Assembly: GCA_014058105.1 (NCBI GenBank)
Contig: JACGCM010000940.1
Location: 682,001 to 746,000, forward strand
Source of the DNA: Kingdonia uniflora
Lineage: Eukaryota > Streptophyta > Magnoliopsida > Ranunculales > Circaeasteraceae
DNA: 64,000 nucleotides
Reading direction: 5' to 3'
The position numbers and the translations under genes are program-made. Position 1 is the first letter of the stretch. Every line of letters begins with the position of its first letter. The notes below the pieces were generated by a model, which worked only from the letters and a program-made list of their open reading frames with translations, was not told the origin of the DNA and did no database searches. Below are positions 4,646-64,000 of the stretch, piece after piece.

Positions 4646-7600
4646 ACTAATGATTTGGAATGTTAGAAGCCTGAATAGACCTCAGATGCAGTCAGAAGTT
4701 AGAAACACTATAAGAGCAAACAAACTTGGGCTTGTTGGTCTTTTGGAAACAAAGATTAAAGAGGAAAACTTTGAGAGGGTAAAAAAAAATATTGCGCCAA
4801 ACTGGAGCTCTTTATGCAACTATTCTTATTCGATAGAAGGAAGAATTCTAATGTTTTGGGATTCATATATATTCAACATTGCTTTACACTCATCAAGTGC
4901 TCAGGTACTTACAGTCCACATTACTACTAATGGTACAAACCAGGAGTTCTATTTGTCTTGCATATATGCTTCTAATGCGGCAAATGAAAGAAACATGTTA
5001 TTGGATTACTTCAACAACTTATCTACACATATACAGACCCCATGGATCTTAGCAGGGGATTACAATTGTGTAGCTTATGCTAGTGATAAAAAAGGAAGAG
5101 ACCCCCCTATTGAACCTGAAATGTTACCACGTACTGAGAAATTTTATTGACTACATGGGCTTAACTGATCTGAGGTGGAAAGGTCTAAAACACACATGGA
5201 CAAACTTTCAAGTTGGATACAGCAGAATATTTTCTAAACTTGACAGAGCTTTGGTTAACAATCATTGGATGCTTGATTTTGTGGAATCTGAAGTGAACTA
5301 TATGCTTTATGGGATCTCTGATCATGCCTCTCTTCATATTACTATAAGTACAAGTCATTCAAAAGTTGCTCCTTTTAGATTCTCAAATGTTTGGCTGGCC
5401 CACCCTACTTTTAAAGACCTCGTTAAGAAGGCATGGAGCAATAAAGTTTATGGACCACCTATGTTTGTGCTAGCCCAAAAGCTCAAGCTTTTGAAAGAAG
5501 ATATCAAAATTTGGAAAAAAGGAAGTATTTGGGGAGTTAAAGCAGAAAGTTCAAGATGCAGGAGAAAAATTGCAGAAGATACAAGAGGATCTAACAGAAA
5601 GTGTTGATTGTGAAAGTTTGCAGGCAGAAGAAAAAAATTGTAGAATAATTCTCGACTCTTTGCTTCATTAAGAGGAAATACAAGCTAAACAACAATCTAG
5701 ATGTAACTGGCTTACTTTGGGGGATTCAAGCATAAGCTATTTCCACAACTGCATAAAAGAAAGGAAGAGAATAAACTGGATCCATTATATAAAGAACAGT
5801 GAGGGTGTTCTTCTAACTGAGAGAACTGACATCGAAAGTGAAGCTGTTAATTTCTATAAAAAGCTTCTAAGTGCCAATGATGAAAAATCTTTTCAACCTG
5901 ATGTGCAACAAGGTCTTACAGAAAATCAGCAGAAAGAAATGTGTAGAGATTTCACAACTGAAGAGATAAAGGACATGATTTTTAATGAAAAAGATGGCAA
6001 TGCACCAGGAATGGATGGATACAATGTGGAGTTCTACAAGCAATGTTGGGACATTGTGGGGCTGGATGTCATGAAATCTATCAAAGCCTTCTTCAGGTCT
6101 TTCAAAATCCTAAAGGAGATAAACATAACAGTAATTAAACTCATCCCTAAGACCAAAAGTCTAAGCTCTTTTGCAGAATTCAGGCCCATATCCCTATGCA
6201 ACACCATACACAAGTTTATTTCGAAGTTACTGGCACTCAGAATGAGAGATGTTATGAAAGATCTTATAGACTCAAGCCAATCAGCCTTTATTAGAGGAAG
6301 ATATATCCAAGAAAATATCCTTCTAGCTCATGAAATCTCAAGAGGATTTGACAGGAAAAATGAAGTCTCTAAAATGCTTTTGAAAATAAATTTGCACAAG
6401 GCCTTTGATTCTATAAACTGGGGATATCTTTTTCAAGTCCTGCATGGTATGAAGTTTCCTCCAAACTTTATAAAGTGGATTGAATTGTGCATAACAACTC
6501 CAAGCTTTAAAGTAGATGTTAATGGTGCAATGACTGGATTCTTTTCTAGTTCCAAAGGGTTGAGACAGGGAGACCCCATCTCCCCCTATCTGTTTGTGAT
6601 AGCCATGCAACACTTGTCTGTAATGCTCAATAAAGCCTCAACCTCTCAAGAAATCAGCCTCATTCCTACTTCCAGAAGTGGAAATCTCAGACACATTATG
6701 TTTGCTGATGATCTTATCCTTTGCTTAAAAGCTACTACAACCAATGCCATAAAGATTATAGACATTATTAGAAGGTTCTCTCAAGATTCAGGTCTGAGGA
6801 TTAACAATAGCAAGAGCTCTGTCTTCTACTCAGGTGCTACAAATGATGAAGAAATTAAAGAAATAAATGTTATTATGAATTTCAAGGTAGAAAAGCTCCC
6901 TGTCAAGTATCTGGGGCTTCCTCTTCTGGCAACAAAACTTACTGAAAAGGATTGTGAACTGATAATAGAGAAGATACACAAAAAGGTTTCCAACTAGAAG
7001 AACAAATGCTTATCATATGGAGGCAGACTAGAGTTAGTGAAAAGTGTACTATTTTCTTACTCTGTATACTGGGCAGGATGTTTTGACTTCTCAAAAGCAA
7101 TCTTGACAAAAATAGAATATCAATTCAAATGCTTTTTAAGGAGTGGATCTGAGAATGTGAAGTGTCTGTCTTCAGTTGCTTGGGTAGATGTATGTGTCCC
7201 CAAAAGTGAAGGAGGTTTGGGATTAAAGAGGCTAAAAGATTTTAATGACTCTATTATGATGAGAACCTTGTGGAATCTAGTTTCTGGTACTGTTAATCTA
7301 TGGACACCATGGGTGAAAGCAAACTATCTTAAAGATAATTCATTTTGGACAGTGAAACCCCCCGGTGATTGCTCGTGGGAATGAAGATCTATTTTGAAAA
7401 AAAGAGTTACAACCCTCAAACACTGTAAGATCATAGTTGGAGATGGCAAATCTACTTCATTTGGCAAGATCCATGGTTGATTGGAGATAATCTAAACCTA
7501 ACAACAAGTAGACATTCTATAATGGTTTCAGGCCTTCCATACATCTCCAAAGTCAACGAGATGATTTCTGCAAATTGTGATTGGATAATCCCACACAAAA

Positions 7601-8798
7601 GTACAAGAGCTGAAGATCTAAAAGGAATATGGAAAACTATTCAAGTTGGTCCAAAACCAGATATAAAAGATAAAGATAGAATGGTTTGGAGTTTGACAAC
7701 AAATGACACTTTCAGTAGTAAATCTGCTTGGAATGCCATTAGAATCCATCAAAATCCTCCAAGTTGGATCTCAATTAGATGGGACAGAAGGGCAGTTCCT
7801 AGACATTCTTCATCCTCTGGCTAACTCTTAAAAATAGACTCAAAACAAGAGACTTTTTGGTGAGAATAGGAAAACTGGAAAAGTCTTACTGCCCCTTATG
7901 CACAACAACAGAAGAAAATAGAGATCATCTCTTCTTTTCTTGTCCATTTTCTCATAATCTATGGGGTAACATTCTCAGCTCTTTAAACATTACAAAAAGT
8001 ATAGGAGACTGGGCAGAAGAAACAAACTGGATTGCAAACTACAATAGAGATAATAACATCTTGAGAATCCTCAAAATAATATTTCTTGCTGCTATCTATC
8101 ATTTATGGGCAGAAAGAAATAAAAGACAGTTCCGGCAACAAAGCAGCGATGAAAAAACAGTTATGGGCATCATTAAATTTGAAGTGGAGACAATGTGCAA
8201 TATTTATACTTTTAATCTATTCTCTACCCCAAATACTGTTGCTATCACAAGCACTTGGAGAATAAAATTCACCCCTAAAAATCTCAAGCAGATTAACTGA
8301 ATTGGATGGAATCCTTCTATGGATATAGTGATAAATACAAGTGGATGTCTCTCCCCAACTAGGAAAGCTTTTGGGGGCATCATAAGACTGAAGAATGGAA
8401 TCTCAATTCTTGCTTTCAATGGTTTGGCAAATCACCTTAGTAGTATTGGGGAAATTGCTTTATATGTTGTCTGTGAAGGAATTAAAGCAGCTACAAGCCT
8501 AGGTATCAAGAGATATGAAGTAATGACAAACTCTTGTTATGCCCAAAACATCACAAATAAAATTTGGAAACCTCCCTGGCATTGCATCCATAATTTCATA
8601 ATGGCTCAGAAGATGAAAGATGAAGTTGAAAATTTTATTTGCTCATTCATTTATAAGGAGGGGATCAAAGCTGCCAATCACATAGCTGCTGAAATGGATA
8701 TTCTCTCCGATCAGCTTGCCTTTCCTCAGGATTTTAGTTGTAATCTAAAGAAAATTTGTATAGCTGATGTACAAAGTAAATACCCTAGGCTGTTTTGA
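4638..8798 (+). pseudogene. LINE ORF2: endonuclease, reverse transcriptase, zf-RVT, RNase H
   Basis: ORF2 starts at ATG 4638 with an AP-type endonuclease (MIWNVRSLNRP, GLLETKI, ILAGDYNCV, then SDHASLHI near 5315). The reverse transcriptase follows: NITVIKLIPK, FRPISLCN, SSQSAFIRGR, LRQGDPISPYLFVI and the active site FADDLIL near 6700. The zf-RVT region (YCPLCTTTEENRDHLFFSC) is at about 7890-7950. A C-terminal RNase H-like domain at 8319-8798 (FGGIIRLKNG, GEIAL, CIADVQSKYPRLF) is the extra domain some plant L1s carry; its expected acidic positions read INTSG and MTNSC, so it looks catalytically dead. Frameshifts occur near 5145, 5570, 7400 and 7800, with in-frame stops including 6995, 7382 and 8298. 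Confidence 0.9.
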
Positions 8799-10676: not shown

Positions 10677-10851
10677 ACAAACCAAACAGTGATCTTGATC
10701 ATTTTTATTTTATTTTGGTTTCATTCCTCTCTATCACAACATCATCTCAAGCTTCTGAAGCTCATTCATGGCGATCAAAGCTTGAAGGTTGTTATCAAAG
10801 ATCATAAATTTGAAGCTAATCATCCTCTACTACAACTCATCATCATCAACA

Positions 10852-13800
10852 ATGGCGTCCTCGAGCTCCAATTTAGGTTCAGCAATAACGATTCACAACA
10901 TTGCAAACCTCGTCTCGATCAAATTGACCAAGGATAACTACATACTGTGGAAATCACTTTGGATTCCAATACTACATAGTTTCAATCTTCTTGGTCTTAT
11001 TGATGGTTCTAACACATCTCCAGCTGAATTCATCACCAACATTGATGAATTGGGGAAAGAAGTTATGATCTCCAATCCTCAATTCTCAGAATGGATCAAA
11101 AAAGATCAAACTCTTCTTATATGGCCGAATGCAACTCTTTCTGAAGGATTATTTCCCTATGTAATTGGATTACCATCATCAGAACTTCTTCGGCGTACTT
11201 TGGAACGAAGGTTTTCGTCAATCTCTCGATTACATGTGATGCAACTCAAGTCGAAGTTATAATCAATCAAGAAGAACAATGACTCTATCTCAGATTATCT
11301 CCACAACATCAAGCAAATTGTGGATAATCTTGCAACATCTGGCTTTCTCATGGATGATGAAGACATAGTCTATCACATTCTCAACGGTTTACATCAGAAT
11401 ATGATGTGTTTGCAACCTCTATTCGAGTGCGATAAACTTCAATAACTACAGATGATCTTTACGGCCTCTTGCTGAGTGAAGAGCTGCCCATTGAGTCAAG
11501 AAATAAGACTCATCTACCCAGTGACTCTACTACACAAGCCTTCACTGCAAGCAAAACACAAGGTGTTCAACAAAATGTGCAAGTCAGAAATTTTAGCAAC
11601 TATATAGGCAGAGGAGATAGAAATGGCAGAGGTGGAAGGAACTACAGTCAAAATTATCAGAACAATGATTCTCAGCCACCTCTTCACAACAACAACCATA
11701 ACAATGGCTATAACAGGGATTCTTCACGAAACTTTACTCAAGGAAGGAGTCAGTCTTACTATCAAAATAATGGTGCAAGTTTCAGTTACTCACAAAGGCC
11801 AACTTGTCAAATCTGCAACAAATTAGGGCAAGCCATGTTGCAATTGATTGCTATAATAGGATGAATTATGCCTATCAAGGTCGAATAACACCCTCCAGAT
11901 TAACTGTACTAATAGCCAACAGGGGCTCAACAAGTTCAACATCCAATTGGTATGCAGATACAGGAGCATCCAACCATATTACCTCTGATATCAACAATCT
12001 ATCTGAACCTTCAGACTATGATGGAAGTGATACAGTCATGGTTGGCGATGGACAAGGTTTGCACATCTCCCATACTAGTTCTTCAAAATTTTCATCACCA
12101 TACTCCAATTTTAGACTCACTAACATCTTGCATGTTCCTCAAATCACAAAAAATCTCATTTCAGTGCACAAATTTGTTAATGATAACAATTGTTCACTAA
12201 CTTTTGCCTACAACTCATTCTTTGTTAAGGACAACACCTCAGGGAAGATTCTTTTCAAAGGACAACATGAAAATGGCCTTTACCCTCTCCCTCTTCAAGT
12301 ACAGTCTATAACATCCAAACTCTTACCAACTGCATTCATTGGAGTCAGGACTAGCTCTACCATTTGGCACCAGAGACTCGGTTATCCCTCTCTTTCTACT
12401 TTACATATTCTAGTTAGTCACAATAAACTTCACCTTAGTAGTTCAATAAAAGATGCCACTTTCTGTAATGCTTGCCAATTTGGTAAAAGCAAGAAATTGC
12501 CTTTTAATCTTGCTCAATTAAAATCTTTGTTTCCTTTGCATATTATACATACAGATTTGTGGGATCCTTCACCACATAAATCTAACTCAGGATTTAGATA
12601 TTATGCAAGTTTTGCTGATGACTACTCTAAATATTGTTGGATTTTTCCTCTATATGCCAAATCAGAATTTTACAGCATCTTTGTAACTTTCAAATCTCAA
12701 GTAGAAAACCAACTTAACAAAAAAAATTAAAATCCTCAGGTCTGATGCAGGGGTTGAGTTTACTAGTAATGTTTTCAAATCTTTTTTGACCACACATGGT
12801 ATTTCTCATAAATTTTCCTGCCCACACACTCCTGAACAAAATGGCATAGCAGAAAGGAAGCACATGCACATAATTGACCTCAGTAGAACCCTTTTCTCTC
12901 AAAGTCATATTCCCCTTGATTATTGGGTTGATGTTTTTCATACCTCAGTATATCTCATTAACAGACAACCCTCCAAAGCTCTTCAAAATATATCTCCCTA
13001 TCAAAAGCTCTTCAACCACATACCTAATTACTCATTTCTTAAAGTATATGATTGTGCATGTTTTCCTTGGCTCAAACCATACATGTCCTACAAACTTCAT
13101 CCTAGGAGCAAATTATGTGTCTTTATAGGGTACTGTCAACATCATAGCGGTTATAGATGTCTTGATATCACTATAAAGAAAGTTTATATCTCTAGGCATG
13201 TTGTTTTCAATGAAACAACTTTTCCCTTTCTATCCAACTCTTCTCAGTTTAATATCACTCCTCCAAAATCACAAAACTTTATACCTCTTACTCTCCCTTT
13301 ATTTTCTTCAAATCATTCCACAACCAATAATGCAATATCACATCCTCCAATACCTTCAACTACTCCTACCTTCAATAATACAGTACCACTACAAACCAAT
13401 TTCTACTCCATGTATCATACTTCCACACACTGACTTACCTACACCTACTAACTTACCTACTCCTACCCAAACTATTCCTACATCTATATCTATCCATGTA
13501 CCATTACCTACCAACAATGAATCACTGCCCACTGTTTTTGTTTCTGCATCTACCACTGTTTTATCACATGCCTCTAGATCCACCAGAATAAATTGCAACA
13601 ACAGTGCCCCTATACATCACATGGCTACCAGATCAAAAAATAGGATATATAAACCAAAAGTACTACTGGCAACAAAGTATCATCTTTCAGACTTGCATAC
13701 TAATACAACAACTATACCTGTACCAACCTGTTTTTCTCAAGCTGTAAATGAACCAAAGTGGAGAAGTGCCATGTCATCAGAATACAATGCCCTACAAGCT

Positions 13801-15143
13801 ACAAACACTTGGTCTCTTTTACCCTATCCTCCTAATCATCATATTGTTGGTTGTAAATGGATTTTCAAGGTCAAACAACACTCAGATGGCTCTATAGAAA
13901 GATATAAAGCCAGACTAGTAGCTAAAGGCTATCACCAAATACAAGGGATAGACTTTTTGGATACATTTAGTCCTGTGGTTAGGCCTACAACAATCAGACT
14001 GGTTTTATCCTTAGCTGTTTAATTTGACTGGGTCATAAAACAACTAGATGTGACCAATGCCTTTATTCATGGACATCTCCAATAACATCTTTACATGTCA
14101 CAACCTCCAGGCTTCATCAACAAAGACCAAACCACACATGTGTGCAAGCTACACAAGTCCCTTTATGGTTTAAAACGAGCTCCTAGAGCTTGGTATGAGG
14201 ATCTAATACATGGCCTTCTTGGTTTGGGTTTTACCACTTGTACATCTAATCCCTCATTGTTCACAAGACACTATGCTGGTACAATCACCTTTATCCTTGT
14301 ATATGTAGATAATATAATCATTACAGACACATCCCTCTCTTATTGCAATCAGATAATCACCCAACTCAGTGCAAAATTTGCAATGAGAGATCTGGGTAAT
14401 ATCTATTATTTTCTGAGATTAGAGGTACACAGAACATCACAAAGACTCTTCTTATCTCAGTCCAAGTACACACTTGATCTTCTCCACAAAGCCTCTATGG
14501 AAAGGGCAAAGCCTTGTAGCACACCTGTATCCTCTGGATTCAAGCTAGATACAACAAGTGGAGAACTTCTTTCTAATGCATCTGAATACATGTTTTTAGT
14601 TGGTGGTTTACAATACTTAACTTGGACAAGACCAGATTTATCTTTTGTTGTTAACCAAGTCTGTCAACACATGCATGCACCAAGAAGTTCTCATATGACT
14701 GCAGTCAAAAGAATTTTAAGATTTCTCAAAGAAACTGTTTCTCATGGCATCAACTTCACAAAGGGTACACTAAGCCTCACAACATATTCTGATGCAGATT
14801 GGGCTGGGTGTCCATATGATATATAATCTACAAGTGGTTATTGTGTATTCTTTGGTAATAATTCCATCTCTTGAAGTGCTAAAAAACAACCCACTGTGGC
14901 TAGATCCTCCACAAAATTTGATTACAGATCACTAGCTCATACCAGTGCTGAGCTCACTTGGATTTGTACACTTCTCAAAGATCTTCAATTTCCTTTATCT
15001 TCTGTACCTATTCTCTGGTGTGACACCATTAGTACAATAGCCTTGGCATCAAATCCTATTTTTCATTCAAGGTCCAAGCATATTGAGGTAGATTATCACT
15101 ACATTCGAGGGCTAGTTTTACTTAAACTTCTCACAGTAAAGTA
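10852..15143 (+). pseudogene. Copia gag-pol polyprotein, broken
   Basis: The order is gag, protease, integrase, RT, RNase H, as in Ty1/copia. Gag starts at ATG 10852 (LTKDNYILWKSLWIPIL) with a stop at 11260. The zinc knuckle near 11808 keeps CQICNKLG then shifts frame. Protease shows WYADTGASNHIT at about 11950. Integrase has WHQRLGYPS, FCNACQFGKSKKLPF, IIHTDLWD, then after a frameshift near 12725 RSDAGVEF and HTPEQNGIAERKH. RT runs from [13 protein letters not shown]; its active site reads YVDN instead of YVDD. RNase H has SDADWAGCPYD followed by a stop. Further stops lie at 13431, 14020, near 14082, 14824 and near 14873. It cannot make active enzymes. Confidence 0.9.
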
Positions 15144-18980: not shown

Positions 18981-20009
18981 TCAAATTTTTATATGCATAT
19001 CTAAGAACTCATTGAACGGCGCAATGTGATCACGAGATACAGGAGGAAAGATATTGTTCCCTTCATTAACGAAGTCATTCGTGTAAAGGTGACGTTCATC
19101 CTCTACAATCATATTGTGCATAATAATGCACGCTGTCATGATATCCTTGAGATTAACAAGATCCCAAAAACGTGCAGTCCCTCGCACAATAGCAAAACGT
19201 GCCTAAAGCACTCCAAATGCTCTTTCGACGTCCTTCCTTGCTGCTTCTTGTTGTTTAGCAAAATATTTACTTTTTCTCCTTGCGGATATGTAATCGACTT
19301 CACGAATGTGGACAACGTTGGATAAATACCATCTGTAAGGTAGTATCCCATCGTATAAAGGTTCTTCCCAATTTTGTAATTTGTAGCTGGAGCGCGACCT
19401 TCCGCAAGATCTGAGAATAGGTTAGACCTTTGAAGAACATTTATGTCATTATGGGAGCCCGACATTCCAAAAAAAGCATGCCAAATCCAGAAATCATATG
19501 AAGCAATAGCTTCAAGAATAATTGTTGGTTTGTGGGCGTAACCCTTATACATTCCATGCCATGTAGTAGGACAATTCTTCCAGGTCCAATATATACAATC
19601 AAGGCTCCCAAGCATTCCTGGAAATCCACGACTCTCGCCAACTTGAAGCAATGGGCGGACATCATCACTATTAGGTGATCTTAAGTACTCAGCTCCAAAA
19701 ACCTTAATAACTGCTACACAAAATCTCTTAAGGCTTTCTATTGTGGTGGTTTCGCTGATCCTTAAATTTTCGTCTAGGCTATCTGCTGCTACTCCATGAG
19801 CAAGCATTCTCAAAGCAACAATTATTTTTTAAAGCAAGGAAATCCAAGGATTTCTGCAGCATTTCTTCGTTGTACGAAGTATGAATCGTGTTGAACTACG
19901 CTTTCTACGATACAAAGAAATAAAGAACGCCTCATTCGAAACCTTCTCCTGAATATGGTGTTGTTGTAAACAGAAGGATTAGCAAAGTAGTATGAGAAAA
20001 CCTTTCATG
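18981..20009 (-). pseudogene. PIF/Harbinger transposase (DDE_4, HARBI1-like), broken
   Basis: The transposase cuts and joins Harbinger elements at TWA targets. Reading down from about 20009: YFANPSVYNNTIFRRRFRMR, SLFLCIVESV, HDSYFVQRRNAA, then (from 19813) a long open part with GFPGMLGSLDCIYWTWKNCP (first catalytic Asp), GMYKGYAHKPTIILEAIASY, FFGMSGSHNDINVLQRSNLF (second Asp) and YYLTDGIYPTLSTFVKSI. A frameshift near 19255 moves the rest to another frame, where ARKDVERAFGVL holds the catalytic Glu, followed by a stop and then ARFWDLVNLKDIMTACIIMH, MIVEDER. The order and spacing match plant PIF-like transposases. Breaks at about 19830, 19255 and 19203 make it inactive. Confidence 0.9.
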
Positions 20010-24716: not shown

Positions 24717-25055
24717 TTCGAATAGAAACAAAGTCTATTCGAATAGAACAATTATTATTCGAATACACCAAAAATGTATTCGAACAAATAAAGACCTGAG
24801 TCAATTTATTCGAATAGAGAAAAAGTCTATTCGAACAAAACAAGTTTTATTCGAACAAAGAAAAAATATATTCGAACAAAACAAGTTTTATTCAAACAGT
24901 GAAAAATATATTCGAACAACTAAATTCCCAAAAAAGTTATTCAAATAAAGAAATAGTCTATTCGAATACATATTGTCTTGAGGGCAAATATTCGAATAGA
25001 ACTAAGTTTTATTCGAACAAAAATCTTATTCGAGTAGAGCAAAAGTCTGTTCGAA
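24717..25055. repeat. TTCGAA minisatellite, ~20-21 bp period
   Basis: About 16 units centred on TATTCGAA(C/T)A, with TTCGAA (or one-base variants) starting at 24717, 24738, 24758, 24779, 24809, 24830, 24850, 24871, 24891, 24911, 24940, 24961, 24991, 25012, 25029 and 25050. The usual step is 20-21 bp, with three steps of 29-30. The consensus is roughly TCTATTCGAAYAGAACAAGT. It lies in what should be the LTR or leader of the copia relic at 22234-24115. Confidence 0.85.
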
Positions 25056-52808: not shown

Positions 52809-52846
52809 TAATAAGAATAGTTTTACTATATGCATATGTTATTTAA

Positions 52847-53017
52847 GGGGGAGGATTTAGAGACACTCAAAAACCAAATACTCAAGTCTCACTCAATACC
52901 AACCACTCATCTCTATTAGATGAGTGGCTCTCAAAATTGGAGATTTTCTATATAGGAAATGAGGTAGAAAACCAAATAGTATATCCTGCCCCACTCATCT
53001 CTACCTGGCAGTCACGT
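52847..53017 (+). repeat. MULE left TIR
   Basis: Starts GGGGGAGGATTTAGAGA and ends ...GCAGTCACGT. Inside, CCACTCATCT (52903-52912) and AGATGAGTGG (52918-52927) are perfect 10-bp arms around a 5-nt loop. Confidence 0.88.
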
Positions 53018-53561
53018 TACATTGTTGCCTTTCCCTCTCTCTTATAAAGATTTGAAACATCACATTATTGTTTTTCCCCCTTTCTCTCTTACAAACCACA
53101 TTCCATCTCTTTCTCTCTCTCTTACAAACAAAACTCTGTGAGTGTAATTCAAAATCCCTAAACCTTCCAAAAAGTCCCACCATTAAAGCTCTTTCTCTCT
53201 CTCGAATAATTTTTCTCACTCAGACAGTTTCTCTCAGTTGTACTCACAGTTAGAGACAGGAGAGACAAATTTCTTTTCATCTTTTCATCGTTAGAGACAG
53301 GGGATTTCCCTTCATCTTTTCCCCATCTTTTCAGGGAAGAATAATTTGTTGTTGCGTTGAATATTTGGTCCAATATTGGAGAACAGGGAGAAAGTAGGAA
53401 TTGACGTCTAGTTGAAGGTATTGGAATTCTCTGTTTTACCTTGACAATAATCCCTCAATAATTATAGTTTATTTACAATCGAATGGAAATTTCCCCAATT
53501 TCTTTTGCCTCTATGCATTGTACCCCTATTTCATGTCCCCTCTATGCATTGGATAGGCAAA

Positions 53562-53884
53562 ATTGTCGAATTCGACAATATGGCAATGGGATTAGAGATA
53601 TGGAAAATTGGTATTTTCGAATTCGACAAAATAACTATGAAATTAGACTTAGTAAAACTATGAAATTGTCGAAATCGACAATTTAAGTATAAAATTAGAC
53701 TAAGAAAAATAGAAATTGTCGAAATCGATAATTTCTCAAATTTAATGGAGTTATGAAACAAAATATTATCGAGATCGACAATTATTATAATGTACATAAA
53801 ACATTGTATATGACATTGTTGATTTTGATAATAACTAAGTACAATTGGGGCTATAATTAGTAGTATATTGTTGATTTTGACAAT
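53562..53884. repeat. Palindrome array 1 (7 units)
   Basis: ATTGTCGANNTCGACAAT and variants start at 53562, 53613, 53665, 53715, 53765, 53815 and 53867: steps of 51, 52, 50, 50, 50 and 52. The units at 53562 and 53665 have perfect arms. The array lies between the left TIR and the ATG at 53935, i.e. in the promoter/5' UTR of the plus-strand gene. Confidence 0.92.
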
Positions 53885-53934
53885 ATTACCCTGAGACTTA
53901 GAGTAATTCCCATCAAATTGTGTATAGGTATACC

Positions 53935-56291
53935 ATGAAAGAGAAAGTCCCTTCTACAACTTCCAATAGAAGAAAAATAGAGTTGGGCAGAGCAGACCCG
54001 GAATACCTGAAATTTGGAAATCTAGTTACATATAAGAGAAAGAGAAAAACTATTAAGACGACAACAGTGGTCCCTTCAAGCACTATTGAAGAATGCCCTT
54101 CAAACACTGTTGAACAATCTCCTCAAAATAATGTTAAAACTGCAAATGAGGGTGTTTCTAAACACAGTGGAGCTCACATTGAGGATGGTTACGAGGTTCG
54201 GGTGATTGGGGGCTCTCAAATTAAGAGTGAGTTAGCCCAAGCTGCGTTGGGAGCTCAACCAATACTCCCAACAGATGGTGATGTTAATACAGATAGTACT
54301 GGCGAGGCGGCTGCAAACAACGATGAGGTTGGCCCTACTAATACTAGTTTACTCAGGAGATTTAAGTTCCATAGAGCGAGGTTGATTGCGCTAGGGTAGG
54401 TATAGTACTTCCCTTATTTGTTATTTCCATTATTTGTTAAATTTTATTTTGCAATCACCAATTTTTTTGACATAATCGATGTTATTGTTCAAGACAAGGC
54501 GTGCCTTCGTATTCATCATCACCCGTCAACATGGGATCTTACAAAGAAACCACAAATGGTCCAAGATTTGGTTAAGTTGAAGGGTTTACATAGAATTGGG
54601 GCCATATTCTATGAATCGTATAACTCTGGCCTAATTTCTGTTTTTGCCGAACGTTGGCAGCCAAAAACTAATAGTTTCCACTTCAAATGGAGGGAGATGA
54701 CTCCAAATTTGGATGATGTAGAACAACTAATTGCTTTTGCGACAGAAGGTGATGTCACTATAATTGGTAGGACTTGGGGATTCCTCATGCTTTTTGAGGT
54801 ATTCGAGAAGAATTTTTTGATAGATCAAAAGGATTCAAGGCTTTAAAAGCTAGTGGTGCTGGTAATTCTTTGTTACCGAAGAAACTAAAAGACCATTATG
54901 CCTACAAATTGGAGAAGGTTCTCAGTGACGGTACTACTGCGAGAGCTAAGAAAAAGGGGTTAACAGCCAAGTCTGTTATTCGTGCATACATGTTATACGT
55001 ACTTGGATCATTCTTATTCCCTACAAAAAGGGCACTGATGTCAACACACATTATCTGGATTTTTTGCCAAGGACAAAGCAGTAAATAAGTGGTCATGGGG
55101 GTCAGCAGTTCTGGCGTACATGTATCACATTCTCGGTGTAGCATCTTAAGATGATGGGAGACAATTTGCATGCTGTACCACGCTACTCGAGGTGATTCCC
55201 CTACTCCTTCACTACTAATTTGTATACATATACATCCACCTATCCCTTTACTAATTTGATTTTGTTTAAGTATATAAATATAGTCATAGATTTTTTCACA
55301 TTTTCCAAAGCTTGCTTGGATACCGACGAAGATGGATTCCGACCAATTCGAGTACTATACTTGTTGGAAATGGGGCGGATCTGTTACAGATAAATACGGT
55401 AGTCTGGCTGTACTAAAGTTTAGGGAAGCATTCGACAAATACAAAGTCGATGATGTAATTTTTTTAGATGAACTATCCAATAATTTTTTGGTAGTTACAC
55501 AGGTCTATATGCCATTGTTATATACTTAGATAAACAACCAATATGTAAGTACATATTGTCGAAGTCGACAATATTGGTAGTGTATATAGAATCAGGTAAT
55601 GTGTAATATTGTTAAGTTCGACAATTATGGCAATATAGATCTAGTTTTTCATATATAATATTGTCGAGCTCGACAATTATTGCAATGTAGTTCTAGTTAT
55701 GCCTATATAATATTGTCGAGATCGATAATTATTAAGTCCATTTGGAGTTATGCATATATTATATTGTCGAAATCGACAATATAAATAAATTACTGTAGTC
55801 TTACTTGGTAAACAGATAATTTAATGCTTTTATCTAAAAAAAAATTGCCTTCACAAAAAATTTTCTTTAGATGTCTTTCCCTTATATTTTTATGTTCTTA
55901 ACATAATATATTTAAGTCATTTTTCATGTAGGTTGTATGGGACCCGTATAGAGATAAAATGGATTATGCACATGGGTTCAAGGAGATCACCTATTTCTAT
56001 GGTGTACTAGCAAGTCCAGACCATGTTCAGCCCTACTACCCAAATAGGGTTGTGCAGCAGTTCTCACGGGAACAAGGTATCCCCCAAAAGCCTTTATGTC
56101 TAGAGGTGTCCAACCTTTGGATCTCCGAAGAGCCAAGGAAATACAGCCCTAAGTATGAGTGGGTTGATTGATTCTCTGAAAAGTGGAAGGATTGGATACT
56201 GAAGAAGGCCGAAAGGGGGCGGATGGATACTTGGAGTGGTTTGTCACTGTCTCGTGGACGACGATCTGTCCCGTTACCATTGACTTGGCTG
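53935..56291 (+). pseudogene. MULE-borne plant mobile domain (PMD) gene, 5' half
   Basis: PMD proteins (MAIN/MAIL family and many transposon relatives) are nuclear proteins tied to silencing and genome stability. ATG 53935 opens a Lys/Thr-rich exon (MKEKVPSTTSNRRKIELGRA) to the donor near 54396. The PMD follows: LVKLKGLHRIGAIFYESYNS, FAERWQPKTNSFHFKWREMT, PNLDDVEQLIAFATEG (54560-54760), then after a one-base shift in a T-run near 54818 LKDHYAYKLEKVLSDG, VIRAYMLYVLGSFLFPTK, LDFLPRTK, SWGSAVLAYMYHILGVAS, an in-frame stop and, after introns, exons 55332-55515 and 55932-56170 (FYGVLASPDHVQPYYPNRVV, QQFSREQGIPQKP). The order matches PMD. Introns hold palindrome array 2. A few breaks make it a pseudogene. 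Confidence 0.78.
55555..55780. repeat. Palindrome array 2 (5 units)
   Basis: Units start at 55555, 55608, 55660, 55712 and 55763 (steps 53, 52, 52, 51). Perfect arms at 55555, 55660 and 55763. The linkers also resemble one another (CAATGTAG.TCTAGTTATGC, TATATAATATTG), showing tandem descent. The array fills an intron of the PMD gene. Confidence 0.93.
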
Positions 56292-56764
56292 TAGATGATG
56301 ATCTTGAGATATTTGGAATTCATCAAAAGAACCAAGCTCCATAAGTCAATGAGGATGGTGACACCCCCGTGGACCACTATGAAGCTGGTGGTGAACAATA
56401 TCATGCATCGGTTAGTACATCTTCCCTTATATTTTGTTCACTCCCTTCCTTTTTGCTTCAAATATTTATTGTCTAATATTATGTTTACAAAATTGTAGCA
56501 CAATGAGCATGCCACTCTGTCTCTAAATTCCCATGATACCATGCCAATACAGGATGAATCTTGCGGGTTGGATAAACAAATCAAGGCATTAAATGATGAA
56601 CTTCAGAAGCTTAAGGAAGATAATGATCAATAGTCTCAAACCAACATAAAGCTAGCAGAGGCCCTGAAAGAGAAGGTCAGTGTTTATCTACAGTTAATGT
56701 TAGTGTTTATCGGCAGTTATCTTTATATCTAATTTAGATATATGTGAAGTTAAAAATATATCAT

Positions 56765-56885
56765 ATTGTCGAGCTCGACAATTATGTAGTTGTTTGTGAA
56801 TTCATCTAAATGTAATATTGTCGAGATCGACAATAATATAGTGAGACACATTAGAAAATTGTCGAATCCCTATTGTATCGACAAT
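56765..56885. repeat. Palindrome array 3 (3 units)
   Basis: Starts at 56765 (ATTGTCGAGCTCGACAAT, fully palindromic), 56817 (perfect arms) and 56858, where ten extra bases (TCCCTATTGT) separate the arms. In an intron of the coiled-coil part. Confidence 0.9.
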
Positions 56886-57873
56886 TTTGAAATTCACATG
56901 TACAGTGTTACTTGGTTATAAAATAATTGTTTCATCTCCTCTTAACCTCAGACAAGTGAGTGTAATTTACTAAGAGAAAGCATTGATCAAATGAGCGAAG
57001 ATATGCAACTAAAGGTGTACTTGACGAGCAATGTACACTAGCATACGCAAATCTACCGGCCCAGTTAGATGCGAAGGTAGGCAGATATCATTATCCCCTC
57101 AATTGATTGTTTTATTCCAAACCATGATGTTGGTAATAATATATTTGTTTATAGATATTGGAGTGCAAGAATTTATAAGAGAAAAATGCAAGTTTAGAGG
57201 CAGAGCTAAGGCAAAAATCTGGCCTTGAAGAATGTAATGTGAGCTTATCGATTGAGTTGAATAAGAAGGTAATGTAGTGTATAACATTATTACTTATTGG
57301 AGTCCATTAATCATTCTTGCATGGCATGTAATTATTTTGTAAATGTGTACAGTCTAAAGAGAATGAGTCACTTAAAGTGGTCAATGCCCTTTTGATGGTG
57401 CAGATAGACTTACAATTTCCACCCGCTACACCTGTGAGTTTACCCACACTTGTATGGAATCTATTGGTTTGTGGCTACATTATTTTTAACTATGCTAACA
57501 TTTTTCTTGTGCTACATATTTTGAATAGCTAGCTATCCTCCAATCACATCAGCCTATAACAAGCATTGATATAGCAAAGAAGTATGATGGCTTGTTGTCT
57601 GCGCAAGTTGATTGCGAAAGAAAATTTTGTCAGTCATTCAAAATTAATTATATTAGTTTTAGTTAGTGAATTGGAGTTTCTGTTTGATAATCCAAAAGTG
57701 AATAGAATGTCTTGGCTAGGTTTCCCTTGAAAATATTGACTTTATATAAGTTCTATTTTGTGAAGCACTTGAGTGTATTTTTTATGTTATATGTTAGGGA
57801 TAATCAGATGTTCCATTCAACTTGATAAACATGGTCAATATCTGTTTGGTTATGGTTTGAGTGATGTATAAAA

Positions 57874-58040
57874 ATTATCGAATTAACTACTGTATTGACA
57901 ATAATAACTAAAGTAATTGTTAATTTTGACAATTTGTATTTGGTTAGACAATATAGTATTATCGAAATCGACAACATAGTATTGTCGAAATTGACAATTT
58001 TTATTTGGTTAGACAACATATAATTTTTGAAATCGACAAT
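57874..58040. repeat. Palindrome array 4 (5 units, decayed)
   Basis: Units at 57874, 57916, 57958, 57981 and 58023: steps 42, 42, 23 and 42. Arms carry mostly C-to-T and G-to-A changes (e.g. ATTGTTAATTTTGACAAT). The 42-bp step is about four helical turns. Confidence 0.85.
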
Positions 58041-58441
58041 AATTGGCTGTCAAATCCAAATACCTAAACTGGATACTCATCTCCTTTATGTCTTTGGAAC
58101 AGATACTAAATTAAACATCCAAGTACAAGAAAGAAGCTGCGAGAGTTACGGAGGAAAATAACGATCTCGTAAGCCCCCCATCTCCATATTTATTTAATGG
58201 AATATTTATTTCATTATTAATCCTAATGTTAGAGTTTATTTTCAGCATAAGAGGTTGGTTAATGCTGAAGAGATGAATAAGTCTTTAGAAGTAAATAACA
58301 ATGAATAGGTATGGCCTATTTCTAACTCTTGTACCTATGTCACCCCATGTCATGTCGTTATTCATAAGCTTTGGTGATGTACCTATTAGTGTATATTATA
58401 ATATCTAGTTATTGTTGTTACAGGAGGTTTGACGTCAATCA

Positions 58442-59247
58442 TTGAAGAAGGCACTGACGAATGAAGGGTTGGGAGACATGGGGGACCTAACGTTTGAAGA
58501 AATTTTTGACCATAATGAAATATTCTTCACAATAGCACAACAAGGACCCAAGGAAGATTATCAAGAAGACTTGGTTTTCACGAGGGTAACCCTTGAAAAT
58601 GTTGTCATTGCTAGGAGGGAGAATATAGCTAAGAAGAATAAGTTACAAGAAGTTTTATTCCAACTGTGGACGAAGTATCTTCTAGATGTTCGTGGTATCG
58701 AAACAAGTGACAACAATTCTACTTTTAGGGTTACTACCACGAATCAACACCAGAGCCAACATAGATTTCCAGATGTAATGAAATCATTGAAGACCTTTCT
58801 CTGTAGGGACCCCACATTCTGAAAGAGTATCTTTAGCCAAACATTGGGTATACAATTCACTCCAGACGGTGAGAATGCGTATTAAATTATGTTACAGGCA
58901 TTTCTTTTGATCATCTGCATGTGGAGTATAGGCATATGGTACATTTACTATCCACTTACTATGAGAAGGTTGCAGTCTTTATTATCCCCACTGAAGCATA
59001 TACATTCTTACCCCTCTTTTGGACACATAAAATAAACAAAACTTCAAATGAGGAGAGGTTTCAAAATCTTATTATGGATACTAATAAGTACAGGTGGTTT
59101 GGTTTGGGGACGGACAACCATTATGTTTGTTTGTTTCCAAGGTTTGATGCACCAATGCCTCCAATTTCTGCTATTTTCTACTGTCATACAAATCTTGAAA
59201 TTCCTCTGGCATTTGTGAAAGAACAACTGACTAGGTATGTTAGATGA
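58442..59247 (+). pseudogene. C-terminal part of the MULE plus-strand gene, unrecognised
   Basis: Two open blocks: 58442-58822 (KKALTNEGLGDMGDLTFEEI, then RVTLENVVIARRENIAKKNK, LFQLWTKYLLDVRGIE) and 58921-59247 (YEKVAVFIIPTEAYTFLPLF, then RWFGLGTDNHYVCLFPRFDA, PMPPISAIFYCH). They are in line with the coiled-coil exons and stop just before array 5, so they are probably the end of the same gene. I looked for the His/Asp/Cys pattern of Ulp1-type proteases that some MULEs carry and did not see it. Unknown domain. Confidence 0.45.
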
Positions 59248-59335
59248 TCTGAATCTCATTTCTAACTGTTCAAAGTATGTACATATTGGTTGTGAAGAAT
59301 ATTTTAACAGTGCACTTGGAACTAAGTAATAAAAT

Positions 59336-59508
59336 ATTGTCGATTTCACAATATTTGTAGTATATATGGTTACTTGCAATATATAATATTGTCGAGTTCG
59401 ATAATTTTGGTAGTATATTTGAAATTATGCATTTGTACTATTGTCGAGCTAGATAATTACCAAGTATAATTAGAGTTAGGGGTATATAATATTGTCGAAC
59501 TCGACAAT
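59336..59508. repeat. Palindrome array 5 (4 units)
   Basis: Units at 59336, 59388, 59440 and 59491 (steps 52, 52, 51). The last has perfect arms. It lies just downstream of the plus-strand gene. Confidence 0.92.
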
Positions 59509-60170
59509 TTAGTTAAATTATAGTCGATCTATTACATAACCCAACAATTTAATGCTGTATTTTAGACAATCTACAAATTCATAGAGGGTGCATAAAGCCA
59601 CACAATCCCTAAATTCCAAATAGTTTATTGCTATTATCCTAAATTCTATCATCAAACCAAAGTTAATGTTGAATGAACCACTACTATCCTTCGCCAACAG
59701 TAATAATCAAATGCAGAATTATTACAATCAATTACAGATCGGTGCCATGTAGACTCCTATTTTCGTTGATGTCTTGGTTGTTAACATTCTCTTACAACGG
59801 CTGAACAAAATCCTCATGAGTATCTCCTATATGGAATTCATTCCAATTGTAAATATGTGGTAAATACATGGGAAACATATTATAGAGAAATCAGAAAATA
59901 TGACATTTATGCATAGTGTCGAATATGTACTTAGTTGATACCACTATCTTCATTTTGAGAAGTGGGCATGTTTGTTTGTCATGGTTGTCAAGTACTCCAC
60001 AATTTTTGTATGTTCTCTTCTTCTTCATAACAGTCTCTTCCATCCCTCCCCTTCCATCTTACCCTTTTCTTGTAATCAGTCTTTGCTCGTCCTTTTGTTT
60101 AAACAATAAGAGGGTTTAAAATGATAGTTCCAGACATCATAGAATCTGCTAAAAAAGTAGAGATGTTTGG
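59509..60170. other. Space between the two MULE genes, no gene seen
   Basis: AT-rich, short frames only. This is the 3' side of both convergent genes. Confidence 0.45.
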
Positions 60171-62489
60171 TTACGATGCATCTGTCTGTGTTAAAAAATT
60201 GTCAAAGTTATCAAGGTAGGACTCAATCTCGTCTAGCTTCAAAACTGCGAATTCAAAGTTTGATTTCATCTTCGAGGCCCTTTCAAATAATTTTGATGCA
60301 TGAAGGGATAGGTGGCTATGGCGTAAGGGATGTCGTAAGTTTTCTCCTCCCAATTGACTTTTATCATACGACCTTGAAAACTTGTTTGAACCAATTGCTC
60401 ACCTTGTCATAATGAAAGCTTCAGGTATTTTGAGAATGTCGTATTTCAAGAAAACCTTCAGGAGGTGACAACATGGGAGTCCAACATACTCAAACAAGTT
60501 ACATCCACAATTACCAGTTAGCTTGTCTAAGTCTATATTTAACTCAAATGGCCCGGTACCACCACTATGGGACTTCACCGTAACTTGTCGAAGGTTGTCT
60601 TCTACGTTTCTTTCTATTTCAATGAAGTGGACAACCTGGTCAAACTGATCTTGAAGTTTGTAGAACATTGTTCTTGTGTAAATCTTTGTAACATCTTTTA
60701 GTAGAGCTTGATGAGGACCAACTTGATGATATTTGTGTTCTAATGCAAAGTCTTCTCCACTCTCTCCTTTGCATACCTCTAAAAGTACAGTCTCATACTT
60801 GGCACAAAATTGTACAACCCAGTTATTACTGGCAACCAACTATTAAAGAAGTTGTTTATGGACTCACTCCGTCCTGTACTGCTCATGCCTACATAGAAGG
60901 TCAAACAATTCCATAATGGTATCCATTTATGCCTAATATTGAAGATGCCTTGCATCTAAAGGTTATCATCCAATTTATGTTTCTTCATTAGGTTCATCCA
61001 CTTCTTTTCAAACTCTACAGCCTCATATGTGTCGTGCATTATCGAATCGATATCTTCTTTAAATGTAGATGGTTCTCGATAAACATGGCCTATCTTCTTA
61101 GGAAATTTGTATGTGATGTGCCTCAGACAAAATTGATGTCTGGTGTAGGGGAAGACCTACAAATAAACCAGAGGAACATAGAATGATTTAGAGACATTGC
61201 TTCATAATCTATAATGTCGATCAAAATCTTGGGTCGACAATAAAATGTCAATACATGATTGTACTTGATAATATATTGGAGTTATATATAACATTGGAAT
61301 TATGAAACAAAATATTGTCGATCTCGGCAATTATGACAATGTACATGACGCATTGCATATATAGCATTGTCAATTTCGACAAATACCAAGTACAATTGGA
61401 GTTATATATCGATTATATTGTCGACCTATATGGTAAATCGATAATTTAATCAGTGCGTAGTCTGTCCAATTCGAACTCCTTTTTTACCTTGGGAATAACG
61501 GCGGCCATAGCTGCATCATGATCAGTGATAATTGAAACAGGGTGTTTGTAGTTCATTAGCTTCAACCAAGTATGGAACAACCATACAAATGTGTTTTCCT
61601 TCTCATTCCTTAGTAGAGCACATCCGTATTGAATTGTTTAGTAGTAGTTGTTGATCCCTGCAAACGGAGCAAAATGCATCTTGTAGATATTGGTCCGGTA
61701 CGTAGTATCGAAGGTGACGACCTCTCCAAATGCCTTGTATGCGCACTTTGAACGTCCATCAATCCAAAAAAATAGGGCTCGGTCCTCCTCATCTAATTCT
61801 ATATTAAAATAAAACATCAGATCTTCAGTTTGTTTCTTCCTAAACTACTCCAACGCGACTTGTGCATCTCCTCTGACTAGTCTTTCCTTATCTACTTTGG
61901 CATTGTAGTTGTAACAATCCCATTTGTTGAAGGTTTGATCTGAGAATAATGACAGGACCTTGCTCACTGGAATATTGTAGAGCTTAAATATTGTTGTCAA
62001 GTTTTTTGCTACTTCTGGAAAGAATCTGTTAACCTTCATATGATGATGATTTCGCGGAGATACGAGTTTATGGTTATGGATATTCGTGAAACTGGTGACA
62101 ATATATTTTCCTATTTTGGTATTCCAATTAATATTCATTATTATTTTACACCCACACTTGTCAGATAATCTCCTGCTGCTAGATATGCCACTAGTCTATG
62201 GATCTATCCCATGGTTTTTTTTTGAGAAGCCATTACTCATACAACAGAAGTGGGCTCTGCCTATATCATTTGATCTGGAGCACTTAGTAGAATTGCGTAT
62301 CTTGGTAGAAAAACCTTGCCCTCTTCCATATCGTTCGTAGCACAGACGTGCGTCCTCAACAATATCAAAATGTTAACTCTTGTATGGGGCTTCTACCAAT
62401 AACGGGTCTATAATACGTTCATTTTCATACCTTTTTGGAGACTCATTACGAATAACTCTACTCCAATTTTTAGGTACATAGTCTTCCAT
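60171..62489 (-). pseudogene. FAR1-like MULE transposase
   Basis: It cuts and joins the element at its TIRs. ATG 62489 starts MEDYVPKNWSRVIRNESPKR. The FAR1 DNA-binding part follows (HFDIVEDARLCYERYGRGQG, TSFTNIHNHKLVSP near 62080). The DDE region has ALFFWIDGRSKCAYKAFGEV, VTFDTTYRTN (first Asp, about 61705), FVWLFHTWLK, then SIITDHDAAMAAVIPKVKKE (second Asp, about 61530). An intron (about 61440-61160) carries palindrome array 6. After it come YTRHQFCLRHITYKFPKKIG, GMSSTGRSESINNFF (Glu) and the SWIM finger CGCNLFEYVGLPCCHLLKVF (about 60510-60450), then a helical tail. Stops at several points (e.g. near 62375, 61845, 60960) disable this copy, but every block is present. Confidence 0.88.
61210..61445. 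repeat. Palindrome array 6 (3-4 units, in transposase intron)
   Basis: Units at 61314, 61366 and 61417 (steps 52 and 51), with a split unit near 61214-61241. Flanks AATGTACATGACGCATTG and ACCAAGTACAATTGGAGTTA match array 1 linkers (53790-53850), so arrays 1 and 6 share whole units, not only the core. Confidence 0.88.
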
Positions 62490-62877
62490 TGTCGATCTCA
62501 CTGACAAGTTAACACATAAAAGAAACAATTGTGAGTTGTCCAACGTAAGTAATTTGAGAAAATATTAGAAACTAAACACAAGTAATGTCCAATGCAATGT
62601 TCATTTCATTTGAAAGCCTTCATTTCATCACATGCTACAAAAGAGGAAATACAAAATATAAACAATGACCCCAAGCAAAACTTGTTGTACAACACAGACT
62701 TCTAGCACATACTCCTATCCAAAAATCTAGTTACATTGACATTCTTCCCAACTATATTGACCCCTTTGCTACCCATTTGAAAAATCGTCAGAAGAATTGT
62801 AATCAGCCCTCTTACACACTGAATTGAAATATGCCAAATATTGCTTTTCCCAGAACTTATTTTTTGTTGCCCAAATT

Positions 62878-63117
62878 CTAATTCCCACTCAATTTGGCTT
62901 GCCTCGCTTCTTGTGCTTCAACATCTTGCAGTGGTGGATAGATTTCTTTATGAGTAGGCAAAAAAAGTGGGATGTAGACACTATCGTAACTCTCTGACTC
63001 CTCCACGGCAAGGCACACACAAAATAATTTATAAACCCAGTGCAAAAAACTAAACACCATTGTCAGGCCTCTAAAATAACAGAAGTAAAACCTTATGAAA
63101 TTGTCATGCCTTAACAA
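62878..63117 (-). CDS. Small unrecognised ORF upstream of the transposase
   Basis: A 79-residue frame with a hydrophobic start and a soluble end (YDSVYIPLFLPTHKEIYPPL). It lies between array 7 and the transposase start on the same strand. It could be a 5' exon or chance. No domain is seen. Confidence 0.2.
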   Translation of the reverse strand: MLRHDNFIRFYFCYFRGLTMVFSFLHWVYKLFCVCLAVEESESYDSVYIPLFLPTHKEIYPPLQDVEAQEARQAKLSGN

Positions 63118-63170
63118 AGCATGCTTACAACATATGGCGTAACCTAAAATAAGCTGAAAATAAATGTAAT

Positions 63171-63400
63171 TTTGTCGAGTTCGACAATATACTCCTATAT
63201 GTCAAGACTTACATGTAAACTATTGTCGAGTTCGACAATGTAGTAGTGTGTAAAAACTTTCATGTCCAATATTATCGATATCAACAATTACAATAATGCA
63301 TGTAAGTAATTACATATCTAATATTGTCGAAATCGACAATTCTTGCGTGATGATTGAGACTTACGCTTACAAAATTGTCGAATTAGACATTTCCGACAAT
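63171..63400. repeat. Palindrome array 7 (5 units)
   Basis: Units at 63171, 63222, 63271, 63323 and 63374 (steps 51, 49, 52, 51). Perfect arms at 63222 and 63323. It lies between the transposase start and the right TIR, mirroring array 1 at the other end. Confidence 0.92.
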
Positions 63401-63788
63401 TCATACACTGGATTGCATGGGGAGACAATATTTAGATTACAAAGAGGATTATTAACAGGGGTTCCTTATTAACAAGGGATTACAATTTGTCAGAACATTC
63501 CATACAAAGCAGGTAGGTATAGTACTGGGGATCCCATACTATTGTGTCTAACTTTGAGAGAGGTAAGAGTTCCAAATACCTGTCAATAAAGATGAGTCTT
63601 CTCCTACTTTCTTCTATCACTGTGGCTGTCGCAGTTATTTGGAGAGAAGAATTACACCTCTAATAACAGAAAATCGCAAGAAAGAGAAAGAGAACGGTAT
63701 GGCTGAGAAAGTGATATGAGAGAGATAAAGTGATATGAGAACCAATTTGTTCAAATTTGAAAATTAGGGGAGGACAGAGGGAAACAAG

Positions 63789-63958
63789 ACGTGACTGAAG
63801 AGAGAGAAAGTGGGGCAGGATACACTATTTGGTTTTCCACCTCTTTTCCTATATAAGAAATCTTCAATTTTGAGAGCCACTCATCTAATAGAGATGAGTG
63901 GTTGGTATTGAGTGAGACTTGAGTGTTTGGTTTTTTGAGTATCTCTAAATCCTTCCCC
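63789..63958 (-). repeat. MULE right TIR
   Basis: Reverse complement of the left TIR: GGGGAAGGATTTAGAGA at the outer edge, ACGTGACTG at the inner. The same 10-bp-arm hairpin lies at 63877-63901. Confidence 0.88.
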
Positions 63959-64000
63959 TTTACTTAATACTTTTTTTTTTTTTGCCTTTATTTGTCCCTA

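Follow-up and report, generated by a model that had tools for sequence, protein, structure and literature searches.

Why should a transposable element carry array upon array of one 18-bp palindrome in its introns and spacers and none in its exons? The question is raised by a stretch of 64,000 nucleotides of the Kingdonia uniflora genome (contig JACGCM010000940.1, positions 682,001 to 746,000 of the forward strand; hereafter the window), in which a defective Mutator-like element (MULE) encodes a protein with a plant mobile domain (PMD) and a FAR1-type transposase. The answer favoured here is a tentative one, held at a little under an even chance, and its three parts, namely the binding, the identity of the reader and the outcome, are inferred. 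Each array would offer several docking sites to a DNA-binding protein that is dimeric and sequence-specific, most likely the PMD/coiled-coil protein of the element itself. This reader would recognise the half-site ATTGTCGA as an inverted pair whose members are 2 bp or 12–14 bp apart, the wider spacing amounting to about one helical turn more than the narrower. Occupying the non-coding parts of the element and of its short gene-less relatives, the PMD protein would hold chromatin and DNA in an open state or bring them into one; such sequence-specific anti-silencing would work like that of the VANC proteins of Arabidopsis VANDAL elements.

An earlier note on the window had described seven palindrome arrays inside one MULE, and this is what is found. 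A search with ATTGTCGANNTCGACAAT, permitting up to three mismatches, yields 29 sites in the window against 0.35 expected, the largest count in 100 shuffles being 2. All but one of them (28/29) fall at 53562–63391; the remaining weak match, with three mismatches, lies at 40581, whereas the note had noticed none elsewhere in the window. About 32 copies, as first estimated, are reached only with degenerate or split sites (56858, 57874, 59336, 59520, 61213 and 61417), the count within three mismatches being 28. At least ten perfect sites had been announced, and 10/28 are perfect, with the centres AT, AA, AG, GC, GA, AC and GT. Neighbours within the seven arrays are 49–53 bp apart, except in the fourth array (42 and 23 bp). 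The arrays do avoid exons: 0/28 sites overlap the 5576 exon bp of the gene model, whose exons are drawn from splice signals and relatives. Arrays had also been placed in both subterminal regions, which is loosely put: the outermost 560 bp on each side hold no site, and the terminal inverted repeats (TIRs) are without half-sites.

The arms of the sites hold 1.05–2.0 bits of information, the two centre positions 0.33–0.47 and the flanks at most 0.91, a contrast that is partly built in because the sites were selected by their arms. Between the seven arrays, agreement is 1268/1464 (0.866) in the arms, 1379/2035 (0.678) in the linkers and 91/170 (0.535) in the centres. Forward alignment of the linkers is better in most pairs of arrays, but since reverse alignments win in 8/21, including five of the six pairs that involve array A4, no single linker orientation is claimed. 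Each palindrome has two CpGs, the dinucleotide expected to mutate fastest if methylated. The 56 CpG positions of the 28 window sites read CG in 43 cases, TG in 7, and CA, TA and AG in 2 each; over 417 sites in 46 sequences, 639/834 positions are CG, 88 TG and 81 CA. The CpGs are kept, the arms being part of the site selection here too. Observed over expected CpG is 1.59–1.79 in the arrays, 0.44 in the rest of the element and 0.43 in the rest of the window.

The half-sites occur at two spacings. Among arm pairs with at most one mismatch per arm, a spacer of 2 bp is found 318 times, one of 12 bp 13 times and one of 13 bp 54 times, while spacers of 1, 10, 11 and 14 bp are found twice each; smaller peaks at 24–25 bp (21 pairs) and 34–35 bp (33 pairs) fit combinations of neighbouring sites by arithmetic. 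The pairs with 12–13 bp between the same 8-bp half-sites are a second, newly recognised class of site that marks array edges: 45 of 53 independent split sites (spacer 11–14 bp) stand at the edge of an array, 8 stand alone and none lies inside. Across the genome (1.003 Gb searched), the pattern ATTGTCGAN{3,33}TCGACAAT occurs at 3984 places and its reversed control at 13. Among 50 listed of these perfect pairs, the spacer is 11–14 bp in 38, 18 bp in three, 7 bp in two and of other lengths in seven; the half-site pairs at C36:324417 and 324642, with 7 bp, have a spacing unique among those 50. Gaps between neighbouring sites, counted up to 130 bp, measure 51–53 bp in 181/300 cases. Strict helical phasing of all gaps was considered and rejected, as the 90 gaps outside the 48–54 bp peak have no clear 10.5-bp periodicity (periodicity vector 0.186 at 10.5 and 0.402 at 12), and the helical-turn argument is therefore limited to the step from a spacer of 2 bp to one of 12–14 bp.

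A palindrome may also act through its own structure, as an RNA hairpin or as extruded DNA, for instance as a source of small RNAs or as a splicing signal, and a structure acting in RNA was among the options of the earlier note. Perfect 8-bp arms with short loops would suit such a role. However, a loop of 2 bp is unfavourable for an RNA hairpin, the split form has 12–14 bp between its arms, and the arrays also stand upstream of both genes and in the spacer between them. Compensatory change is lacking as well, since of 497 changed pairs of arm positions only 13 are still self-complementary. This count rejects a hairpin or RNA function, and a structural role of the dyad is highly improbable. Because the half-sites are kept, the centre is freer, the two spacings are quantised and compensatory change is lacking, the sequence features suggest that a dimeric protein reads the sites in double-stranded DNA, the other option of the earlier note.

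The genome search proposed in the earlier note places the palindrome, at the places sampled, within the relatives of this MULE. The perfect form has 4971 genome copies, and the reversed control has none. The first places in list order were sampled as 16 stretches of 10 kb, some of them two halves of one place, which gives 13 places; 16/16 stretches contain parts of the MULE family of the window. TIRs or exons were matched in 15/16 by blastn with the window element. At L009 (L-numbers denote Kingdonia loci fetched for comparison, P-numbers the proteins compared) the array alone matched at first, and the locus was then recognised as a relative in fragmentary form (82% to L020). The samples thus support confinement to this MULE family, and an ordinary satellite is rejected for the sampled places. 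A second sample, picked by the transposase and independent of the palindrome, comprised the best 30 of 150 scored of 1556 candidates and therefore consists of close relatives, the window's own locus included; 30/30 carry at least two sites.

In the relatives, 0/216 sites lie within the 26,485 bp mapped to exons. Array positions recur before the PMD gene, in its introns P3/P4, P5/P6 and P9/P10 or around P11, in the intergenic spacer, within the intron of the transposase gene and ahead of that gene. L007 and L010 have a second copy of exon P11, the two copies flanking an array, and the copy number and period of the repeats differ between relatives. Five complete elements of 2.2–2.7 kb (L005, L008, L017, L019 and L020) have TIRs and arrays and no matching exons. 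In these five, the window element and the L014/L015 element, no compact site (2-bp spacer) lies within 560–884 bp of the ends.

A sister subfamily has the same half-sites in the split form. It is marked by the PMD protein P0039, ~40% identical to its relatives, and has the same convergent genes; its transposase is 51–68% identical to that of the window in the main matched pieces. The DNA read comprises 8.5 kb (L051, L052 and L055) and 1.1 kb (L056) of one copy and 1.1 kb at the upstream end of each of two further copies (L053 and L054). Compact sites with up to three mismatches were not found in L051–L056, nor was a 52-bp array found in L051–L054, where a few weaker repeats stand upstream of exon 1. 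L051–L054 hold six split sites with spacers of 13–14 bp, against a shuffle mean of 0.0 for spacers of 12–14 bp and 0.03 for all spacers of 0–40 bp. Comparison of flanks reduces the six to three distinct sites in several copies. One site upstream of exon 1 is present in three copies, with flanks 0.80–0.94 identical; another is found in L053 and, with two mismatches in one arm, in L054; the third, in an intron, is duplicated within its copy (flanks 0.78), the exon and the intron with the split site being duplicated together. The transposase intron, between the exons in L055 and L056, has two more sites with 13-bp spacers, one perfect and one with two mismatches, and in L055, intergenic spacer included, no split site was found. 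The split sites stand in the same kinds of compartments as the arrays of the window family, although the non-coding DNA is not alignable by blastn: all matches of L051–L054 to that family (E ≤ 1e-4) are in exons. Since the sister subfamily shows the split form only, where read, we tentatively take this form to be the older one and the compact form with its arrays to be derived. Perfect split pairs also cluster at C22:79565-95515, C2:678204-686913, C30:601307-601457 and C34:65508-65812, with spacers mostly of 11–14 bp and the compact form not listed there; these are possibly further split-only subfamilies of PMD-bearing MULEs.

Several points weigh against the anti-silencing function proposed above, and some of them are what a neutral origin of the arrays would predict. 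On the neutral account, slippage and conversion have spread a 52-bp unit, which non-coding DNA tolerates, and the palindrome is functionless. The linkers are indeed homologous between arrays (~68% identical), the repeats vary in copy number and period among relatives, and selection on proteins would clear repeats from exons, so that their absence there would be expected anyway. At places aligned to the window, the arms are only modestly ahead of the linkers, with an identity of 793/909 (0.872) against 1551/1877 (0.826); the corresponding values are 87/114 (0.763) for centres, 168/198 (0.848) for split-site arms, 0.832 for exons and 0.824 for other non-coding DNA. The earlier claim that arms are kept over linkers therefore stands between the arrays and, by this margin, across relatives, but it is reversed in L015 (0.825 against 0.869), one of seven comparable loci; L020, L011 and L016 have no aligned arm positions in this comparison. 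The test across relatives is weak alone, because dead copies decay neutrally and their CpGs are expected to do so fastest. The window copy of the element is defective, the five short elements were found via the palindrome, which makes the gene-less copies with sites a biased result, and the sister evidence consists of few distinct sites in three copies. Profile searches found no known DNA-binding domain in the PMD protein, and beyond the coiled coil both of its structure models are of low confidence. A search of the window PMD protein at E ≤ 1 found neither DUF1985 nor DUF287. The motifs read by VANC reportedly change quickly between related transposable elements; the half-site of the present family is common to subfamilies with PMD proteins ~40% identical. 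The neutral account is nonetheless distinctly improbable, given that the same half-sites recur as single split sites in the sister, in the same kinds of compartments within DNA unalignable by blastn, that the spacers are quantised, that the CpGs, expected to be the fastest to mutate if methylated, are kept, and that linkers and centres drift more between arrays.

Since the sites travel with the element, their reader is probably one of its own products. The transposase and the PMD-associated protein had both been suggested earlier; the latter is the most likely candidate, and the former is less likely. The exons duplicated with arrays are those of the PMD protein, and its long coiled coil, modelled with fair confidence, would be suited to dimers. 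In the models of P0010 (mean predicted local distance difference test score, pLDDT, 51.2) and P0040 (mean pLDDT 56.6), fair confidence is confined to this coiled coil. That the FAR1-type MURA transposase binds the sites, for transposition or for local demethylation, is unlikely. In its favour, it carries FAR1, a known DNA-binding domain, the complete gene-less elements (found through the palindrome) keep TIRs and arrays, and hypomethylation of TIRs induced by maize MURA is cited in Sasaki et al. 2023 (PMC10398659). Transposase binding is, however, expected near the ends, and end-binding is weakened because the ends of the seven elements measured are free of compact sites; the TIRs of the window element lack the half-site, and the arrays fill central introns.

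A host transcription factor might also bind the sites, which the element would then have multiplied as enhancers. Auxin response factors, for example, bind inverted TGTCNN pairs, and a set of two fixed spacings is characteristic of dimeric plant factors. The half-site contains TGTCGA, its pairs have two fixed spacings, and arrays stand upstream of both genes. Arrays also occupy introns on either strand and the spacer that follows both genes, however, and this MULE family is present in every genomic stretch sampled (no search aimed at single sites in host genes was made), which leaves a host factor quite unlikely.

The analogy that guides the preferred reading, anti-silencing by the PMD protein, comes from VANDAL elements, and with these the earlier statement that no described MULE has internal arrays falls. 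The statements in this and the following two paragraphs refer to the portions of the cited papers that were available. In VANDAL21 and VANDAL6, VANC binds arrays of motifs that lie in introns and in the intergenic and terminal non-coding DNA, and these targets recruit the anti-silencing protein (Hosaka et al. 2017, PMC5735166). Like VANC targets, the sites in the window family are short motifs, many per element, forming tandem repeats in MULE non-coding DNA, mainly outside coding sequence, and family-specific (PMC5735166); they lie throughout the element in its seven arrays, with 0/28 in exons (0/216 in relatives), and among the 4971 places they are confined to the family in the 16/16 stretches sampled. 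In VANDALs the structure of the partner gene changes with the tandem repeats (PMC5735166, PMC10398659); L007 and L010 offer a parallel in the exon whose two copies flank an array. Unlike the VANDAL motifs YAGTATTAY and AGTTGTCC/AC, which are described as sharing one orientation, the site here is an inverted pair that contains CpGs and comes at two spacings. The partner here is a PMD protein, whereas VANCs contain DUF1985 and DUF287, and VANDALs are described as having degenerate TIRs, whereas this element has TIRs of ~160 bp and a FAR1-type transposase.

Homology of the PMD protein to VANC was sought and not found, the weak DUF1985 matches being a lead only. A sub-threshold match is present in 3/31 aligned PMD relatives (best E 0.073); those of P0058 (208–255, Pfam 91–138) and P0056 (4–46, Pfam 91–133) share one register inside the PMD, where DUF7745 matches too. 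This could be due to chance or to a distant relationship between the two domains. The genome has 134 DUF1985-like matches elsewhere (best E 3.3e-6), mostly to the last third of the profile. The system would work like a VANC system but is not classed as one, because the window protein yielded no match to DUF1985 or DUF287. The two kinds may be closer than this domain test suggests, because a table in Dupeyron et al. 2019 (PMC6446971) gives the VANDAL group as having 'PMD and/or DUF in half the members'.

Dupeyron et al. describe MULEs that contain a plant mobile domain gene, in many cases on the strand opposite the transposase, and the present element is like them in having its PMD gene opposite a SWIM-bearing transposase, TIRs and 9-bp duplications (PMC6446971). 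In that survey FAR1 is named for Jittery, part of Hop and some non-plant groups and the PMD for other plant groups, whereas both occur together here. In its main text, 'subterminal', 'internal repeat' and 'tandem repeat' have 0 occurrences each, and the available rows of its table give (mini)satellites for aphid elements and Rehavkus but for none of the plant groups that bear a PMD. The PMD proteins MAIN and MAIL1 act on the silencing of transposable elements, and the authors speculate that PMDs captured by MULEs serve anti-silencing, with no DNA target named in the part available (Ikeda et al. 2017, PMC5418596). A promoter motif associated with MAIN/MAIL1 (in MORC1, CATGCAGTTT; PMC9899485) was considered and differs from the palindrome. 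Activation and demethylation by TnpA of Spm are cited in PMC10398659. A literature search on PMD, MULE repeats, VANDAL/VANC and Kingdonia, mostly open-access, found no PMD-bearing MULE with palindromic arrays. TnpA is encoded by a CACTA element and has repeated subterminal sites. The proposed system would resemble it in its element-encoded protein, repeated sites and link to demethylation, and differs in that its sites are absent near the ends and lie in the introns and spacers of a MULE. Internal motif arrays in a MULE are thus of a known kind; the split-site class and the split form of the sister subfamily are new here.

A further-reaching proposal, possible but doubtful, is that this family represents a second, independent anti-silencing system, in which the PMD/coiled-coil protein dimerises on ATTGTCGA half-sites and the spacing (2 against 12–14 bp), not the motif, separates subfamilies. 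If true, the plant mobile domain would gain a DNA-targeted function, and VANC-like systems would have arisen more than once; in the sources available here, transposons that undo their own silencing in a sequence-specific manner are known in detail mainly from VANCs, with Spm TnpA and maize MURA cited as additional examples. The family offers a candidate DNA target for the PMD, an 8-bp half-site at two spacings in thousands of copies with the partner gene on the element, so that PMD function becomes directly testable by in-vitro binding.

Table 1. Features of the element, in positions of the window.
Feature	Position	Strand	Remarks
Mutator-like element, ~11.1 kb, defective	52847..63958		TIR pair and flanks
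Left terminal inverted repeat	52847..53010	+	no half-sites
Array A1, 7 sites	53562..53884		upstream of PMD gene
PMD gene	53935..59247	+	PMD PF10536, E 7.8e-34; defective, broken by frame shifts and stops
PMD gene, N-terminal low-complexity part		+	ahead of plant mobile domain, within 53935..59247
PMD gene, plant mobile domain exons	54493-56408	+	
Array A2, 5 sites	55555..55780		PMD intron P3/P4; decayed split unit behind, 55791-55825
PMD gene, coiled coil	56500-58306	+	
Array A3, 2 compact sites and perfect split site (spacer 12) at 56858	56765..56885		PMD intron P5/P6
Array A4, split site (spacer 13) at 57874 and 4 compact sites	57874..58040		PMD intron P9/P10
PMD gene, C-terminal domain	58424-59247	+	family unassigned
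Array A5, 3 compact sites, 1-bp-deletion site at 59336 and split site (spacer 13) at 59520	59336..59548		intergenic spacer
Transposase gene, two exons around array A6	59950..62490	-	FAR1, MULE and SWIM domains; defective
Array A6, split site 61213, compact sites 61314 and 61366, split site 61417	61213..61445		transposase intron
Array A7, 5 sites, the last readable as split too (spacer 11)	63171..63400		upstream of transposase gene
Right terminal inverted repeat	63800..63958	-	no half-sites

The element has the transposase domain, TIRs and target duplication of ~9 bp of a MULE, and the plant mobile domain gene inside it makes it a PMD-bearing one. Its TIR pair consists of 127 bp, 94% complementary, and an outer part of 34 bp. 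The flanking 9-mers (52838-52846 and 63959-63967) match at 7/9 positions and represent a decayed target-site duplication. The duplication is perfect in the relatives L014/15, L017, L019 and L020, that is, in 4/7 elements with their ends read, the window element included; L008 has 8/9 and L005 none that is clear. The transposase domains are FAR1 (PF03101, E 2.5e-15), MULE (PF10551, E 6.9e-18) and SWIM (PF04434, E 9.9e-7).

The two genes of the window element are convergent, on opposite strands. When 101 of 122 listed PMD places were compared with 149 of 150 listed transposase places, 25 PMD places had a transposase place within 15 kb, 25/25 of them on the opposite strand and 24/25 at a distance of 5.7–6.8 kb; the two genes form one unit. 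The third-position excess is modest, as expected for decaying copies, with values by codon position of 0.174/0.169/0.242 in the PMD gene and 0.146/0.124/0.175 in the transposase gene.

A search with the PMD protein of the element returned 39 proteins, all from Kingdonia uniflora. Coiled-coil exons are duplicated with an array or split site in L007 (906-1277), L010 (4734-5147) and L052 (347-822), and the length of the coiled coil may change along with the sites. The C-terminal domain of the protein (homologues P0040-P0064), ~220 amino acids long, is conserved and without a convincing match in Pfam or PDB; its 42 database matches, query included, are all from Kingdonia. An OTU-like fold with the catalytic cysteine replaced was considered for it and received no support from Pfam or a PDB sequence search. 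Outside the element, open frames at 3299-8798, 10789-14826 and 19136-19813 of the window read, by eye, like a LINE, a Copia element and a Harbinger-type transposase, and tandem repeats of 20 and 41 bp at 24717-24919 are built around TTCGAA.

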